DNA of 21,463 bases from a virus: positions 1 to 21,463 of IMG/VR virus record IMGVR_UViG_3300046812_000341; one strand, given 5' to 3'. A model generated the notes under the pieces. That model had not been told where the DNA came from. It was given only the letters and a program-made list of their open reading frames with translations, and did not search any database. Below, one piece after another: positions 1,992 through 21,463 of this stretch (positions are counted from its first letter, which is position 1; each line of letters begins with the position of its first letter). The translations under genes were made by a program, and so were the position numbers.

Positions 1992-3293
1992 TTACGGTTG
2001 GCGGCTCACGCCGCTGCTCGGCAGGATGTTGTTGAAGAACCCGCAGCGGTACGGCATGCGCAGCACCGGCGCTTGATTGCTCAAGCAGCGGATTTGGCAG
2101 CCGGCGTTGCTCGGTAGCTCGAGGAAGAACCAGTCTTGGCCCTCACCGCGGAACGTGATGTCAGTCGAGCCGACACGCTTTCCGTTCATCGGCGAGAAGA
2201 ACATCGCCTGCCCTTCCTTCATGTACTTGTGAAGGGCGACGTCGACCTTGCCGGCCGGGCTCTTGTACTCGAGGTTGTTTGTGCCTTGGCGACGAACCTC
2301 GTCACCGTTGCCGGTGAAGCGTTGCAACGCATCCGCTTCCTCTGCGAGATCGGCAAAGCCGCCCGGCGCGAAGAACGCTTTGCCGCCCGTGTCGAGGCCG
2401 TTCGAGAACAGCTTCGACATCGCGTAGAGGATCTTCGAGCGCGTGGGCGCAGCCGAACCGAACGTGATGTTCGGCACCTTCCACATCGGAAACTGGTTCG
2501 CCGGAATGCCGAAGATCGTGCCGGCGTTCGTGCAGATGGCTTCGATGCCGATGCACGTCTTGCCCTGCCAGCCGGTCGGGATGAGCCGATCACCAGCGAC
2601 CGGCGTGTAACCGCCGCCGCTGCCGCCAGCGCCCACGCCCGTCAGCGTGATCGTGCGTAGGTCGGGGTTGACCGCCGTGACGATCGCCTTCGACGCGTTG
2701 ACCGTGACGCCCGCGGTGGCGATGACGTCCACCTGCGCGTTGATCATGTTGTTCCAGATGCCAGCGGCCCAGGAAGCAGCAGTGATCGTGATCGTTGCGC
2801 CGGCCGTGATCGTGCCGCCCGTGATGGGCGTGGTCACAACGCCGATGTCGCACGCGATGGTGCCGGTGTTGCCGCAGCCGTAGAGCAGCGACAGCTCGCG
2901 GTAGAACTCCATCGACTGCATCAGCAGCGAGGTCTTGAGCTCGAACGCGGTCTTGAACGCGTTGCCCGCACGACCGTCGCCGGCGCCGTTGCGGCCCTTG
3001 AACGTGACATCGTACGGGATGTTGCCGACCATCGCCAAGGTCGAGCCGTCGAGCGTCGCGTTCTTCAGCACCGAGTCGATCGCGCTGTTCAGCGCGAACG
3101 CAGTGCCCGTGTTGTCAGCCGTCTGGCCTTGCTCGAGCGAGACGACGACGGGGAAGTTGAATGCCTGGCCGGGGCGCTGGTCTTGCGGAACGAACTGAAA
3201 GAAGTCCGCAATCGTGTTCTCCTCCGGCAGAGGATTCGTGAAAATGCCGTATGTTTGCTTGTAGTTAGGTAGCCAGTTCGCGAGTGAACTCAT
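1992..3293 (-). CDS. Major capsid protein (coat), P22-like size and placement
   Basis: 433 aa, close to the 430 aa of P22 coat. The N-terminus (NWLPNYKQTYGIFTNPLPEE, then DQRPGQAFNFPV) resembles phage capsid N-arms. A helical spine-like stretch (FKTAFELKTSLLMQSMEFYRELSLLYG) lies near residues 115-140. Residues about 150-240 are Thr/Val/Gly/Ala-rich and beta-prone, which could be an inserted domain like the P22 I-domain (inference). The C-terminal half contains a typical capsid pattern with aromatic and Arg residues. The gene lies downstream of the scaffold and an 80-aa gene, and it is followed by a strong terminator, as expected for a highly expressed coat gene. The ATG at 3293 has only a weak ribosome binding site (GGTG). 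Identification rests on order, size and pattern. Confidence 0.82.
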   Translation of the reverse strand: MSSLANWLPNYKQTYGIFTNPLPEENTIADFFQFVPQDQRPGQAFNFPVVVSLEQGQTADNTGTAFALNSAIDSVLKNATLDGSTLAMVGNIPYDVTFKGRNGAGDGRAGNAFKTAFELKTSLLMQSMEFYRELSLLYGCGNTGTIACDIGVVTTPITGGTITAGATITITAASWAAGIWNNMINAQVDVIATAGVTVNASKAIVTAVNPDLRTITLTGVGAGGSGGGYTPVAGDRLIPTGWQGKTCIGIEAICTNAGTIFGIPANQFPMWKVPNITFGSAAPTRSKILYAMSKLFSNGLDTGGKAFFAPGGFADLAEEADALQRFTGNGDEVRRQGTNNLEYKSPAGKVDVALHKYMKEGQAMFFSPMNGKRVGSTDITFRGEGQDWFFLELPSNAGCQIRCLSNQAPVLRMPYRCGFFNNILPSSGVSRQP

Positions 3294-3471: not shown

Positions 3472-3714
3472 TCAAGACTGCAGTGGCGCGTTTGCGAGTG
3501 TCACCGTGACGATTGTGCCGTCGCCGTCGATCCGGAGCGCCTCCGGCCGAAAGCTGGCGAGGGTCGCGAGGTCGACGATGAGCGGCCCGTCGTGCTCGAG
3601 CGCGAACGCGTGCAAGAGCGCTGACATGGTCCGATTGCGCTTCTGCAGCTCGAGCACCTGCTCGGCGAGCGCGCGCTTCGAGTAGTAGGCCGCGCGGGTC
3701 TGTAGGACGCTCAT
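3472..3714 (-). CDS. Small protein between scaffold and capsid genes, function unknown
   Basis: 80 aa, starting MSVLQTRAAYYSKRALAEQV, with a likely coiled coil over the first 30 residues (YYSKRALAEQVLELQKRNRT). A compact C-terminal part with alternating hydrophobics follows (LRIDGDGTIVTVTLANAPL), suggesting two or three beta strands. The start overlaps the scaffold stop as ATGA. Small genes at this position sometimes encode head decoration or assembly helpers, but no family is recognised. Confidence 0.7.
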   Translation of the reverse strand: MSVLQTRAAYYSKRALAEQVLELQKRNRTMSALLHAFALEHDGPLIVDLATLASFRPEALRIDGDGTIVTVTLANAPLQS

Positions 3715-4958: not shown

Positions 4959-7094
4959 TTACGCCGCCCGTGGCGGCTGGTTCTGAAGGTTCGCGCCCGG
5001 TGGCGGGCTTGCGTCTGTGGGCAGCTTCACGCCGCTCGGATCGCGGCCTGCCGGCGCGTTGCCACTCGGCGGGCCACCGGGAGGTGGTGGCGCAGACGGT
5101 CCGCCCGCACCGGCCCCCGCAGCTGGCGGCGGCGGTGCTCCCATCATCATCGACATCTGCATCTGCCAAGTAGGCGAGCCGGGGATGGGAGGCGGCAGCG
5201 GGATGTTGAGCAGCGTCGCGAGGCGCGGGTCGATGTTCTGCCACGCTTCGATGTGCGACATGATGTGCTGCAGCACGCCGCCGACGAGGTTGCCGTCCGC
5301 GTTGTCTTGCGCGCTGAGCTTCTCGAGGAGAGCCCAGTGCTCCATCACGTGCTTGAACGGGTTGTCTCCAGCACCGACCTGCACCTCTTGGGTATTGCCG
5401 TTGCTGAGCTGCTCGTTCTCCCAAACGACGCGCAGGTCGCGCGATCGGCTGTCGTCCGAGTAGCCAGACCAATCGCCGGTGGTGAGCCCGCGCAGCACTG
5501 CGTCGCGCTTCTCGGGCTCGACGTCTTTCAGCGCTTGGAACATCTCGAAGCGACCCGCTTGCGAGCGGAGCATGGGGTTCGCGGTTTCTACTCGCACCTT
5601 ACGAACGCCGCTGACTGACTGCTTCGTGAACTCCCGCAGATACGGGCGCTCCGAGACTCCTGCGACCTCGACCAGGAACGGCGCGGTCGAGAACGACCGC
5701 ACCATGTCGAGCATCATGTTCGCCATGCGCTCGCGGAAACCATCGAGTGCGGCCTGACGCGCGCTTTGGAACTCGATGGCGATCGAGTGGAAGAGCGCCG
5801 CCATCTGGCCGCTCTTGATGTTGTCGCTCGGGTTGCCGCGCGCGACGCTGTTGAGACCGCTGATGCTCTGATGCCGCGCGTGCAGGTACTCGATGAACCA
5901 CTTCACCGACTCAGGCATGCTCGCGTAGTTGAGCGCCGTCGGCGGGTCGCTGCCGGGTGTCTTCGCGAGCGCGCGCAGGCCCATCGCGATCATCGACGCG
6001 TCGAGCTCGCTGCCCTTGTCGTAGACGATCGTGTTGCGCCCGAACGTCGACAGGTTGCTCGCGGTGTCCGAGCAAAGCTGGTCGATCATCTCTTGGATGC
6101 TGATGAGGTCCCACGAGTCGGCGTAACCGAACGCACTGCCGATGAACCGGCCGGCGCACAGATCGATCAGCGGTGTGCCTTCGGGCACGGGGCACGCGTC
6201 ATCCCAGAGCACCGAGGTGCCGCAGTATCCGAGGTAGCGGCCGTTGGGCATGGCGCGGCAGCGCGGGTGATAGAAGTGCTTGACGATGCAGTCGTCTTCG
6301 TCGTCGGGCCGGAAGTCGTGACCGAACAGGCGCTCGATGCAGTACTCGTCGAGCCCGGCCGTCGAGAGAATCTCCTCGGACTGGTCGGGGTAGGTCGCGG
6401 CGATCTCCCACTTGCTCGCGCGCTCACGCACGATGCTCCACGCGTCGGCGCGCACGCTCGGATCGAGCGCCACGTCCCACGGCGCGCACACATCGACGAA
6501 CGGCGCGCCTGACTTCGTCGTCTGCGGCATCTGCGCCGGCTGACCATCGGGGCCCATCACAGGCTGTCCATCGGCGCCCGTCACGGGCTGCATGGTCTTG
6601 ACGTCGTCGCCACCCTCGAAGTCCCAGCGCAGGTGCCCATACGCGGCGCCGAAGACGCCTTCGGCCTCGAGCACCTCGCGCTCCTTCGCTTCGCCGAGCG
6701 CCTTTTTGTAGAGGTACTCGACGATGGAATCGGCGATCTCGACGCTTGCGAGCGCGTCGTGGTCGCTGTTGAGCACGAGGCACTGGAAGGCAGGGCGGTC
6801 GCCGAGCGCGATCACGTTCTGCTGCTTGATGAAGCTGCGAACCTCGTTGATGCGGAAGCGCGTGAACTCGGCTTCCGGACCAACGCGCGCGGTGGTCTGC
6901 GTCGCGAGGTCGGTCGGGTTCGACGGGTCGGTGCCGTAGTACTGCGCCCACGCGATGGACCACATGCTCTTCAGGCCGCGACGTTCGGCGGCGGAGAAGT
7001 AGCGGCGTTCCTTGTCCTGGAGAACGTCGACGAGCTCCTGCGCGGGAAGAGCTGCCCAATACGTGTAGGTCGATTCGGAGTTGCCGTCTGGCAT
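4959..7094 (-). CDS. Portal protein
   Basis: 711 aa, near the length of the P22 portal (725 aa). The mid-region has long helices consistent with a portal stem and wing. One is around residues 385-410, where LHARHQSISGLNSVARG and a DNIKSGQMAALFHS segment occur; the latter is typical of portals that sample helical ring contacts. A further helix follows with ARQAALDGFRERMANMMLDM. The last 70 residues are Pro/Gly/Ala-rich and probably disordered. The portal forms the dodecameric DNA gate at one capsid vertex and docks the terminase. Gene order terminase-portal-scaffold-capsid supports the call. The start at ATG 7094 has a weak ribosome binding site. Confidence 0.85.
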   Translation of the reverse strand: MPDGNSESTYTYWAALPAQELVDVLQDKERRYFSAAERRGLKSMWSIAWAQYYGTDPSNPTDLATQTTARVGPEAEFTRFRINEVRSFIKQQNVIALGDRPAFQCLVLNSDHDALASVEIADSIVEYLYKKALGEAKEREVLEAEGVFGAAYGHLRWDFEGGDDVKTMQPVTGADGQPVMGPDGQPAQMPQTTKSGAPFVDVCAPWDVALDPSVRADAWSIVRERASKWEIAATYPDQSEEILSTAGLDEYCIERLFGHDFRPDDEDDCIVKHFYHPRCRAMPNGRYLGYCGTSVLWDDACPVPEGTPLIDLCAGRFIGSAFGYADSWDLISIQEMIDQLCSDTASNLSTFGRNTIVYDKGSELDASMIAMGLRALAKTPGSDPPTALNYASMPESVKWFIEYLHARHQSISGLNSVARGNPSDNIKSGQMAALFHSIAIEFQSARQAALDGFRERMANMMLDMVRSFSTAPFLVEVAGVSERPYLREFTKQSVSGVRKVRVETANPMLRSQAGRFEMFQALKDVEPEKRDAVLRGLTTGDWSGYSDDSRSRDLRVVWENEQLSNGNTQEVQVGAGDNPFKHVMEHWALLEKLSAQDNADGNLVGGVLQHIMSHIEAWQNIDPRLATLLNIPLPPPIPGSPTWQMQMSMMMGAPPPPAAGAGAGGPSAPPPPGGPPSGNAPAGRDPSGVKLPTDASPPPGANLQNQPPRAA

Positions 7095-19346: not shown

Positions 19347-19585
19347 GTCGGTCTCCTTTAGTGAATAGGGCGCACGCCGCCGTCAGCTGCATCGAGGGGG
19401 GACACGATGTCAGCCGACGGCGGCGGAGCGCGAGCGACCGCGCGCACGCAAGGCCGCTAAGTGCGCAGCAAATCGCCCGAGTCGAGAACGCGCCTGCAAT
19501 GGGTCATTGCGTCTGTGGTGCGCGGTCCCGACTCCGATGATCAGATGCGATAGCTTGCGACTAACGACGCTGTGACCACAGGAGG
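19347..19585. other. Intergenic region between the Cro-like gene and the early operon
   Basis: 239 nt. Besides the hairpin at 19375-19425 it contains CTGTG-AC-CACAG at 19570-19581 (5-bp dyad right after the HTH gene stop) and TGCGA-TAGCT-TGCGA near 19547. I found no promoter with good -35 and -10 boxes for the leftward early operon; it may be read through from the HTH gene. Confidence 0.4.
19375..19425. promoter_or_regulatory. Long imperfect hairpin in the leader of the leftward operon
   Basis: CGCCGCCGTC at 19375-19384 pairs with GACGGCGGCG at 19416-19425 (10 bp). Within the loop GCTG pairs with CAGC, then CATCG with CGATG, leaving a loop AGGGGGGACA (TGTCCCCCCT in the minus-strand transcript). 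The stem ends about 20 nt upstream of the ribosome binding site of the 19346 gene. It is not followed by a U run in either direction, so it is not a simple terminator. A translational control element, RNA-protein binding site or origin-like structure are options. Confidence 0.65.
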
Positions 19586-19804
19586 TCATGCAGCTTGAAC
19601 CCCCGCGACCAGCTCACCGATTGGGACACGCAGCGCCGCGGCGACGAGCCGCAGCGTCGAGAACGACGGCTCGACAAGGTCCGCCTCCCAGCGGTAGACC
19701 GTTGCCGTACATCGCCCGATCTTCCGGCCAAGCTGCGGCTGGGAGAGTCCCTGCTTCTCGCGGGCGTTCTTGATGCGGGTTCCCAATGTTCGCGCCATAT
19801 GCAT
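19586..19804 (-). CDS. Cro-like XRE-family HTH repressor
   Basis: 72 aa. MHMARTLGTRIKNAREKQGL starts the protein, then SQPQLGRKIGRCTATVYRWE and ADLVEPSFSTLRLVAAALRV form a typical five-helix XRE domain with recognition helix near CTATVYRW. No other domain. It is the first leftward gene and faces the 143-aa HTH gene across 77 nt, like cro facing cI. The ATG (19804) or ATG two codons later lies inside the operator-like inverted repeat CATATGCATC, and no ribosome binding site is visible before either, so the transcript may be leaderless or autoregulated by the same sequence. Confidence 0.8.
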   Translation of the reverse strand: MHMARTLGTRIKNAREKQGLSQPQLGRKIGRCTATVYRWEADLVEPSFSTLRLVAAALRVPIGELVAGVQAA

Positions 19805-19854
19805 CTAATGTGTATGCGCGATCGAATGAAAAGGCAAGCGGTTCGATGCATATG
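19796..19854. promoter_or_regulatory. Divergent operator region with CATATGCATC inverted repeat
   Basis: CATATGCATC at 19796-19805 and its exact complement GATGCATATG at 19845-19854 flank the centre between the two HTH genes; TGTATGCG lies between at 19811-19818. The second copy places a CATATG hexamer (19849-19854) at -10 distance from a start near 19861, which would give the rightward gene a 21-nt leader with AAGAGG. The pattern suggests binding by one or both HTH proteins. Confidence 0.6.
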
Positions 19855-19881
19855 CTGAATGAGCCGTCGCAAGAGGCGGAA

Positions 19882-20313
19882 ATGTCTGTTCATCTCATGA
19901 AGATGAGCGACAAGGCGATTGGCAGGCGCATCAAGTCGGCACGGACATCCGCCGGGCTAGGACAGGCGGAGATGGGCCGAAGGATGGGGGTTTCCAACAC
20001 CACCGCGTGGCGATGGGAAAGCGGAAAGACATCCGTCCCGCTGCCGAAGTTGCGGAAAATAGCGGAGCTCCTCAAGGTCGGGATGGAGCAGCTTTTGCCT
20101 CCGGTCCGGCTTGTGGATGCCGAAGCGGATACAGCGCCCGCAGACCCTGAGGAGCACGTTCATATCGCGCAGCTGGCGCTCGCGGTCGCTCGCGAGCCAA
20201 GCAACGCCGCAGCGGTCAAGAGGTTCGACGATGCGGTGATGCGCCGAGCGCGCCGGCTACTGGCCGCGAAGATGCGTCACAGCGACAAAGACGACGACGA
20301 CGCCGGCGTCTAG
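19882..20313 (+). CDS. CI-like XRE-family HTH repressor
   Basis: 143 aa from ATG 19882, chosen because AAGAGG sits 5 nt upstream; in-frame ATGs at 19846 and 19852 add a few residues and overlap the operator. MSVHLMKMSDKAIGRRIKSA opens the protein, then RTSAGLGQAEMGRRMGVSNT and TAWRWESGKTSVPLPKLRKI form the XRE domain with recognition helix NTTAWRWE. The remaining 70 residues are helical and acidic with a basic end (RRARRLLAAKM, DKDDDDAGV); no LexA/CI-type peptidase motif is seen. It is the longer of the two divergent regulators and probably the lysogeny repressor. It ends sharing CTAG with the convergent gene. Confidence 0.78.
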   Translation: MSVHLMKMSDKAIGRRIKSARTSAGLGQAEMGRRMGVSNTTAWRWESGKTSVPLPKLRKIAELLKVGMEQLLPPVRLVDAEADTAPADPEEHVHIAQLALAVAREPSNAAAVKRFDDAVMRRARRLLAAKMRHSDKDDDDAGV

Positions 20314-20507
20314 CGCACGCACTCAAACTCCCAGCGGCAGTTTCGGCCGCTGTAGTCGCATACGCACGTCGGCCTCATCGCTCGACAGCCGATCGGTGGA
20401 ATCGGCGGCAGCGGAGCGAGGCCGCAGCCGTTGGCGGCGGCGGCTGGCTCGGTTGGTGTTAGCCACAGGCAACCGATCGTCATCAGCAAGAACAGGCAGT
20501 GTTTCAT
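20310..20507 (-). CDS. Secreted Cys-rich small protein (CGLxPLPPIPPxGC type)
   Basis: 65 aa with a signal peptide (MKHCLFLLMTIGCLWLTPTE, cleavage probably after PAAAA). The mature part is NGCGLAPLPPIPPIGCRAM, then PTCVCDYSGRNCRWEFECV: six or more Cys with a Pro-rich centre, of a type I recall from small phage-encoded exported proteins. The start has GAGGGG 7 nt upstream. Its TAG shares the palindromic CTAG with the convergent repressor stop. It overlaps the C-terminal part of the next minus-strand frame by 185 nt. Function unknown. Confidence 0.72.
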   Translation of the reverse strand: MKHCLFLLMTIGCLWLTPTEPAAAANGCGLAPLPPIPPIGCRAMRPTCVCDYSGRNCRWEFECVR

Positions 20508-20832
20508 CGTCGGGCCCCTCGGGTGAGATGGATGGCCGCACGATATGCAGGCCCCTGCGGTCTCGCCACTTGGCTGTCTGTTCAGCGATCTCTTCTAGCT
20601 GCCTCCATACGGGCTGCTCTGCCTCGTAGATGAGCTTCACCCCATCCAGGTAGGCCGGCCCACATCCGAGTCGCGGAGTCAGGCGTAAACCTGACAGGTA
20701 CGCGTCGGCAAACGGACAACCTGTAACCTCGCTGACTTGTGAGTTCCGCAAAGCCCACCCCTTTTGTGAGGTGGCGAGAAGTACCACGCGGCTACTTGCT
20801 GCCGGAAAGCCACGAATGGGACGCTGTCGCAT
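20323..20832 (-). CDS. Excisionase-like DNA-binding protein (C-terminus uncertain)
   Basis: About 169 aa from ATG 20832, though upstream starts are possible and no good ribosome binding site exists. The segment ALRNSQVSEVTGCPFADAYL followed by SGLRLTPRLGCGPAYLDGVK and LIYEAEQPVWRQLEEIAEQT resembles short HTH/excisionase-like proteins with PRLGxGPxY (inference). The last third is Arg/Ser/Asp-rich and lies under the secreted Cys-rich gene, so the true stop may differ. Codon use is lower in G/C at the third position than its neighbours, suggesting later acquisition. Converges on the CI-like gene. Confidence 0.5.
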   Translation of the reverse strand: MRQRPIRGFPAASSRVVLLATSQKGWALRNSQVSEVTGCPFADAYLSGLRLTPRLGCGPAYLDGVKLIYEAEQPVWRQLEEIAEQTAKWRDRRGLHIVRPSISPEGPDDETLPVLADDDRLPVANTNRASRRRQRLRPRSAAADSTDRLSSDEADVRMRLQRPKLPLGV

Positions 20833-20880
20833 TTTGGTAGCACCTATGCAGCACCTGTAAGCATCGCGCCGATTTTTTTC

Positions 20881-20927
20881 TGCGTATGCATTTGACACGC
20901 GTACGCATCTCATGCATATGGTTGTGC
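20881..20927 (+). promoter_or_regulatory. Promoter and operator region with GTATGCAT-type repeats
   Basis: TTGACA at 20892-20897, a 17-bp spacer, CATATG at 20915-20920. The predicted transcription start near 20927-20928 coincides with the ATG at 20928. Repeats related to the lysogeny operators are interleaved: GTATGCAT 20884-20891, GTACGCAT 20901-20908, ATGCATAT 20912-20919. On the opposite side, AGCACCT occurs twice at 20839-20845 and 20850-20856, 11 bp apart. Confidence 0.62.
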
Positions 20928-21227
20928 ATGGACGGCGCGACAAACGACCTCGAGTTTGACCGGGCGGCAACCCTGAAGCGGCTCGCGTGGTTTGCGGCCA
21001 AGCGCTGGGTCTCGGGGATGGCTGACGACCTCGAGCTGCACGCGCGGTCGTACTCGAGGCGCGTCGACCTCCGGCGCATCCCGAGCGACAGCGCGGCGCA
21101 GCCGGAGTGGCTGTGGTCGCAGTTCTGCGGGCACGCCGACAGCGACGGCATCGGCGAGGACGACATGGATGCGCTGCATCCGCTGTTCGTCGCCGAGGCC
21201 GCGCTGCTCATCTCGTACGGCAACTGA
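20928..21227 (+). CDS. 99-aa phage protein, probably leaderless
   Basis: ATG 20928. The earlier in-frame ATG at 20886 would put the promoter inside the gene. Protein: MDGATNDLEFDRAATLKRLA, then WFAAKRWVSGMADDLELHAR, SYSRRVDLRRIPSDSAAQPE and WLWSQFCGHADSDGIGEDDM, ending DALHPLFVAEAALLISYGN. It is acidic at both ends and basic in the middle; no HTH or membrane segment. No ribosome binding site precedes the ATG, in line with a leaderless transcript. Function unknown; its control by lysogeny-type operators suggests an early or immunity-linked role. Confidence 0.7.
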   Translation: MDGATNDLEFDRAATLKRLAWFAAKRWVSGMADDLELHARSYSRRVDLRRIPSDSAAQPEWLWSQFCGHADSDGIGEDDMDALHPLFVAEAALLISYGN

Positions 21228-21254: not shown

Positions 21255-21463
21255 ATGCGGACACACGAGCAAATGCCACTGAGAGACACGTTCGGGCGCT
21301 CGATCGAGATCGTCGATCGCAGCGAGCACGCGAAGCACTGGTGCCGCGCTGAGCGGCGGCGCATCGAGGCAGAGCGTCAGGCGCTCCGCGAGCAGGTGCA
21401 CGCGCTGAAAGTGCGCGAGCGTGAGGTCGTGCAGCTCGAGGACGAACTCAAGCGCGAAGGGAG
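21255..21463 (+). CDS. Coiled-coil protein (partial, C-terminus off window)
   Basis: Open frame of 69 codons running off the right edge. ATG 21255 sits 6 nt after the leader box. Sequence begins MRTHEQMPLRDTFGRSIEIV, then DRSEHAKHWCRAERRRIEAE and RQALREQVHALKVREREVVQ, LEDELKREG. Most of it is a charged heptad-like helix. No family recognised; size unknown. Confidence 0.68.
   Translation, partial: MRTHEQMPLRDTFGRSIEIVDRSEHAKHWCRAERRRIEAERQALREQVHALKVREREVVQLEDELKREG

Follow-up and report, generated by a model that had tools for sequence, protein, structure and literature searches.

Two control regions with a common operator-like motif point to a lambda-like immunity region in an uncultured phage

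In phage lambda, the repressor gene lies between two sets of operators with 17-bp dyads, and the outer operons are transcribed outwards from them; the gene order and directions are those of the locus described here, with rex at the place that a lipoprotein-like gene takes in the latter. In phage P22, the lysogeny repressor is the c2 protein. The two operator sets of lambda are involved in a loop of 2.3 kb (PMC5880393). The stoperators of Cluster A mycobacteriophages are asymmetric sites distributed genome-wide. Among heteroimmune members of that cluster, the operator diverges along with the repressor (PMC6550527). Temperate phages of Streptococcus thermophilus encode lipoproteins as well, namely those of the Ltp type responsible for superinfection exclusion (PMC3952083).

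The DNA analysed here, hereafter the window, is an entire IMG/VR virus record of 21,463 bases (also G000), and it contains two control regions, A and B (Table 1, bounds set by the analyst), which lie about 1.1 kb apart as compared with the roughly 2.3 kb of lambda (PMC5880393). Region A is the gap between two divergent HTH genes, one small (Cro-like) and one larger (CI-like), and region B precedes the gene at 20928, so that the locus reads as a leftward replication operon headed by the small HTH gene, region A, the rightward larger HTH gene, region B and the rightward early genes. The same operator-like sequence is found in the gap of the HTH pair and again past the putative repressor gene, before an outward operon, and this arrangement is repeated in relatives. 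The first-pass annotation had proposed that one repressor controls both the lysogeny switch and the gene at 20928, with an excisionase-like gene reading the other way between them. The part of this proposal that is supported is that both regions carry a single type of operator, of which the repressor of the divergent pair is the predicted natural ligand, whereas the excisionase-like gene finds no support. As refined here, the proposal takes lambda OR and OL as its model and puts the larger HTH gene in the interval separating the operator sets. Regions A and B probably both serve as operator sets in a single temperate-phage immunity region, where the larger HTH protein would be the repressor and the small one its Cro-like counterpart.

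Table 1. Positions of the main features in the window
Feature	Position	Strand	Remarks
Region A (OR-like)	19796-19854		TATGCAT at 19798 (+) and 19846 (-); variant TATGCGC at 19813
Region B (OL-like)	20884-20919		TATGCAT at 20885 (+) and 20912 (-); TACGCAT at 20902 (+)
Operator-like 17-bp dyad, region A	19798-19814		TATGCAT-CTA-ATGTGTA, 2 mismatches
Operator-like 17-bp dyad, region B	20902-20918		TACGCAT-CTC-ATGCATA, 1 mismatch
Small HTH_3 protein, 70-72 aa, Cro-sized	19586-19804	-	Leads leftward operon
Larger HTH protein, 143 aa	19882-20313	+	Start follows AGAGG; ORF open from 19786
Conserved gene, 112 aa	19008-19346	-	After small HTH gene in leftward operon; 79% identical in G001
First gene of rightward early operon, 99 aa	20928-21227	+	Start codon 9 bp past site B
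Rightward gene 2	21255-21461	+	Leaves window end; 70% identical in G001
Lipoprotein-like ORF	20310-20507	-	Reads toward putative repressor gene; no family match
Capsid and portal genes	1992-3293 and 4959-7094	-	

The strings that had first drawn attention to these regions are all in place, with CATATGCATC at 19796-19805 and GATGCATATG at 19845-19854 in region A, and GTATGCAT at 20884-20891, GTACGCAT at 20901-20908 and ATGCATAT at 20912-20919 in region B, and the claim that one motif marks two control points separated by about 1.1 kb is borne out by TATGCAT, which occurs twice in each. A search of the whole window located its four exact copies (0.52 expected from whole-window shuffles) within the two regions, so that coding DNA does not carry the motif at a similar frequency, and at least four copies were reached in none of 100 such shuffles; the form TATGCGY has four further occurrences outside regions A and B. 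The G+C content of regions A and B is 0.48 and 0.49, respectively, versus 0.654 for the genome, and the common words could simply reflect promoters rich in AT within a phage of high G+C content. Because of this difference in composition, each region was also shuffled alone with its dinucleotides kept, and at least two copies of TATGCAT in both regions appeared in 1 of 20,000 shuffles, an outcome that, together with the recurrence of the pattern in other genomes with different dyad-symmetric words, makes the compositional explanation very improbable. The moderate level of motif-free word sharing in the window, a weaker test than that with the motif, speaks in its favour: the sharing of 6-mers between regions B and A was equalled by none of 2000 random windows, and that of 7-mers by 69 of 2000, and in an unguided ranking of the window against region A, region B ranked fourth by 6-mers and was not among the first five by 7-mers.

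The motif copies can also be arranged as a 17-bp dyad, TATGCRT-N3-AYGCATA, prompted by one of the relatives (G010). At up to three mismatches the window holds two matches, one per region (1.09 expected), and at up to two mismatches it holds two versus 0.04 expected, a number equalled or exceeded in 2 of 1000 whole-window shuffles; these figures are partly post hoc, since visual inspection of G010 and the window had revealed the dyad ahead of the scan. When spacers of 0 to 13 were compared in both genomes pooled, spacer 3 ranked top at up to one and up to three mismatches, and the scan at up to two mismatches gave five matches for spacer 0 and four for spacer 3. Two of the four TATGCAT copies, those at 19846 and 20885, have no good dyad partner, and this, along with clusters of the motif core in G010 away from both regions, would be expected if the sites were asymmetric single half-sites, some of them transcription-blocking stoperators instead of promoter operators. 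Such a reading is improbable, given that the window has no TATGCAT outside the two regions and that each of these contains one good dyad; the sites form two compact clusters, unlike the genome-wide stoperators of Cluster A mycobacteriophages. Compared with the three operators per set of lambda, the window offers one clear dyad (up to two mismatches) per region plus unpaired TATGCAT. A TTGACA at 20892-20897 sits amid the motif copies of region B, and no sigma-70-like promoter passed the scan. No paper describing this operator in a phage was found among the titles and opening abstract lines of the open-access literature.

Both HTH proteins match HTH_3 above the cut-off. The small one (Pfam HTH_3, 5.1e-11) has its start ATG at 19804 or 19798, within the putative operator A1, and is proposed to be Cro-like by topology. 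The larger one matches HTH_31 (2.9e-11, query from 19846), and its structural model, of moderate confidence (pLDDT 76.6), consists of an N-terminal HTH plus two more helices, with HTH regulators including P22 c2 as fold matches. The Pfam scan gave no Peptidase_S24 match in this protein, in contrast with the S24 self-cleaving domain of lambda CI, and induction therefore cannot be that of lambda. An alternative, rather unlikely but the most serious one considered, is that the small HTH protein alone reads both sets as a Cro-type autorepressor, or is itself the lysogeny repressor, while the larger one serves another function. The best PDB profile match of the small protein is the P22 c2 repressor (8.1e-8), a likeness that here falls on the protein leading the replication operon; moreover, its start codon lies within site A1, and roles cannot be assigned by size alone. 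Against this, the topology of lambda puts the repressor between the operator sets and cro first in the replication operon, and in those relatives for which a region B was located, the gene flanked by A and B is that of the larger HTH protein, reading from A toward B. If the larger protein is the lysogeny repressor, as preferred here, it would bind the 17-bp dyads through the half-site TATGCRT. Bound at A, it would turn off the leftward replication operon led by the Cro-like protein and tune its own gene, and bound at B it would silence the rightward early operon, whose start is at 20928. The identity of the binding protein is in this sense a prediction from sequence, both HTH proteins may share the sites, and the promoter positions, the near-leaderless starts at 19804/19798 and 20928, and a DNA loop joining A to B are equally putative.

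The comparison with relatives makes the reading of a shared operator much firmer than the window alone. Searches with TerL and capsid proteins provided 12 further records, which with the window make 13 phage records. TerL was matched by none of 50,697 phage records, and its search in genome contigs yielded no prophage or host. The small HTH protein as query returned no relatives in viral contigs, the two flanking genes recovered only G001, an alignment search with the larger HTH protein recovered only G010, and HTH searches in phage records turned up nothing beyond distant matches, none of which reached 60% identity. The capsid protein of the window is weakly similar to SU10_MCP (1.3e-4, under the Pfam cut-off) and its portal to phrog_156, weak matches that suggest a phage lineage distant from cultured phages.

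HTH_3 was matched in 12 of the 13 records and a divergent HTH pair was found in seven, six of which have a word common to the gap of the pair and to another control region at a distance of about 0.9-1.6 kb: TATGCRT in the window and G010, GTTGAC in G001, GTTCRC in G007, TGGACT in G009 and, weakly, ACTAG in G011. The seventh, G003, has a divergent pair in which no shared word was found, and counts as a miss. The palindromes of G001, G007, G009 and G011 were chosen by eye in one or both control regions before scanning. G010 shows two 17-bp dyads at up to two mismatches, in the HTH gap (32834) and 0.9 kb on (33766), with no enrichment of the half-site TATGCRY (24 versus 31.9 expected) and with its region B ranked fifth for 6-mers and fourth for 7-mers, behind other clusters. 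Extra TATGC clusters of G010 are located at 24854-24866 and 28037-28193, outside both control regions, and could be additional operators. In G001, the palindrome GTTGAC-N4-GTCAAC occurs at 23661 (no mismatches), 23702 (one) and 24691 (two), that is, three of its five sites at up to two mismatches fall in the control regions, the other two, with two mismatches each, lying elsewhere in the 41.1 kb; region B is second by 6-mers and below fifth place by 7-mers. In G009, TGGACTNNAGTCCA is present at 29206 (no mismatches), 30437 (one) and 30407 (two), all three sites at up to two mismatches within the control regions and none other in 41.9 kb, and region B ranks first for both word lengths. In G007, GTTCRC-N4-GYGAAC appears at 2538 (no mismatches) and 2569 (two) in B and at 3546 (two) in A, whose sites are degenerate; the word itself is not rare, with 14 sites at up to two mismatches versus 11.3 expected, and region B tops the genome-wide matches to region A, with 30 common 6-mers versus 3.3 expected (0 of 2000). 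Finally, an ACTAG-cored word at 21539 of G011 has one match, with five mismatches, at 19963, and none elsewhere in the genome. In the window, the motif is repeated, sits at both control points and takes dyad form, and the layout recurs with other words in relatives.

The neighbourhood follows the same order in these records. Replication-type genes, as read from the sequences, lie past the small HTH gene in G007, G009 and G011, recT is beyond B in the four records having both (G007, G009, G010 and G011), and a tyrosine integrase, likewise on the far side of B in relatives, is present in 6 of 13; recT and integrase were not found in the window, which stops 0.5 kb past B, or in G001. The latter is syntenic with the window and retains the neighbour genes (79%, 70% and, for the gene at 20928, 37% identity, 2.1e-8), with the HTH pair swapped for different proteins; the product of the gene at 20928 found no match in Pfam and PHROGs. 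The larger and small HTH proteins of G010 are 42% and 34% identical to those of the window, and all four carry RWE or RYE in the recognition-helix stretch (YRWE in the small and AWRWE in the larger protein of the window, AWRWE and MWRYE in those of G010), a feature absent from the HTH pairs of G001, G007 and G009. The operator would change along with the repressor, as described for Cluster A mycobacteriophages (PMC6550527). It is conceivable, and suggested tentatively, that the lambda-type switch behaves as an exchangeable cassette, in which the HTH pair, together with the two operator sets some 1 kb from each other, adopts another word as a unit while the neighbours stay, and which is accompanied by a hairpin through which the replication operon may be controlled by a new RNA element. 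The arrangement makes the immunity code of these uncultured phages legible from sequence, including the repressor pair, the operator word and both target promoters, and relatives that share the layout but differ in word form a natural series in which the co-variation of repressor and operator is directly testable.

Between the larger HTH gene and region B, these genomes have a gene that reads in the opposite direction. The ORF taken for an excisionase gene in the window (20323-20832, minus strand) has no excisionase or MerR/AlpA-type family match, and Pfam and PHROGs (20323-20850 submitted) and NCBIfam (20323-20832) returned nothing at E up to 0.1. Its third-position G+C is a weak 0.62 versus 0.73-0.92 for the genes of the window, only its subsegment 20521-20670 appears coding, and it is overlapped by the lipoprotein-like ORF of Table 1. 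The opposite-reading gene is lipoprotein-like in G001, G009 and G011, and more weakly so in the window; at the corresponding place, G007 has a lipobox-like reading in the raw sequence only, and G010 a gene with no lipobox. From its position, the ORF of the window is a possible superinfection-exclusion gene, its likeness to Ltp being suggested just by the lipobox-like start and the location near the repressor gene.

A last observation is a hairpin with a UCCCCCC loop in the window (19374-19432, minus strand), in the gap that separates the Cro-like gene from the gene following it in the leftward operon, with a counterpart in G001 at 25084-25156 (5084-5156 of L009, plus strand). Between the two, the lower stem is conserved, the upper stem has changed yet still pairs, and the loop is invariant (z of -6.8 and -3.8, respectively); each genome has a single run of at least six C on either strand, located in this loop. 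A six-C loop is found at the same place in G003, G007 and G011, and hence in all five records having a gap there, whereas G009 and G010 show no corresponding gap after the small HTH gene; the product of Poisson probabilities for the recurrence is about 2e-11, calculated post hoc. A TCCCCCC near an HTH gene of G005 was left uncounted owing to its different, coding context. No Rfam family scored above its cut-off in the window, and a search by E-value gave only weak matches, among them 6C RNA in G011 (18 bits versus 47). The hairpin is a candidate RNA control element at the position of lambda nutR/tR1, an RNA regulator perhaps undescribed, and may be more novel than the operator finding. The noncoding strings CGACTCCGATGATCAG and GTGACCACAG, within 19529-19590 of the window, are also conserved in G001, just past the small HTH gene.
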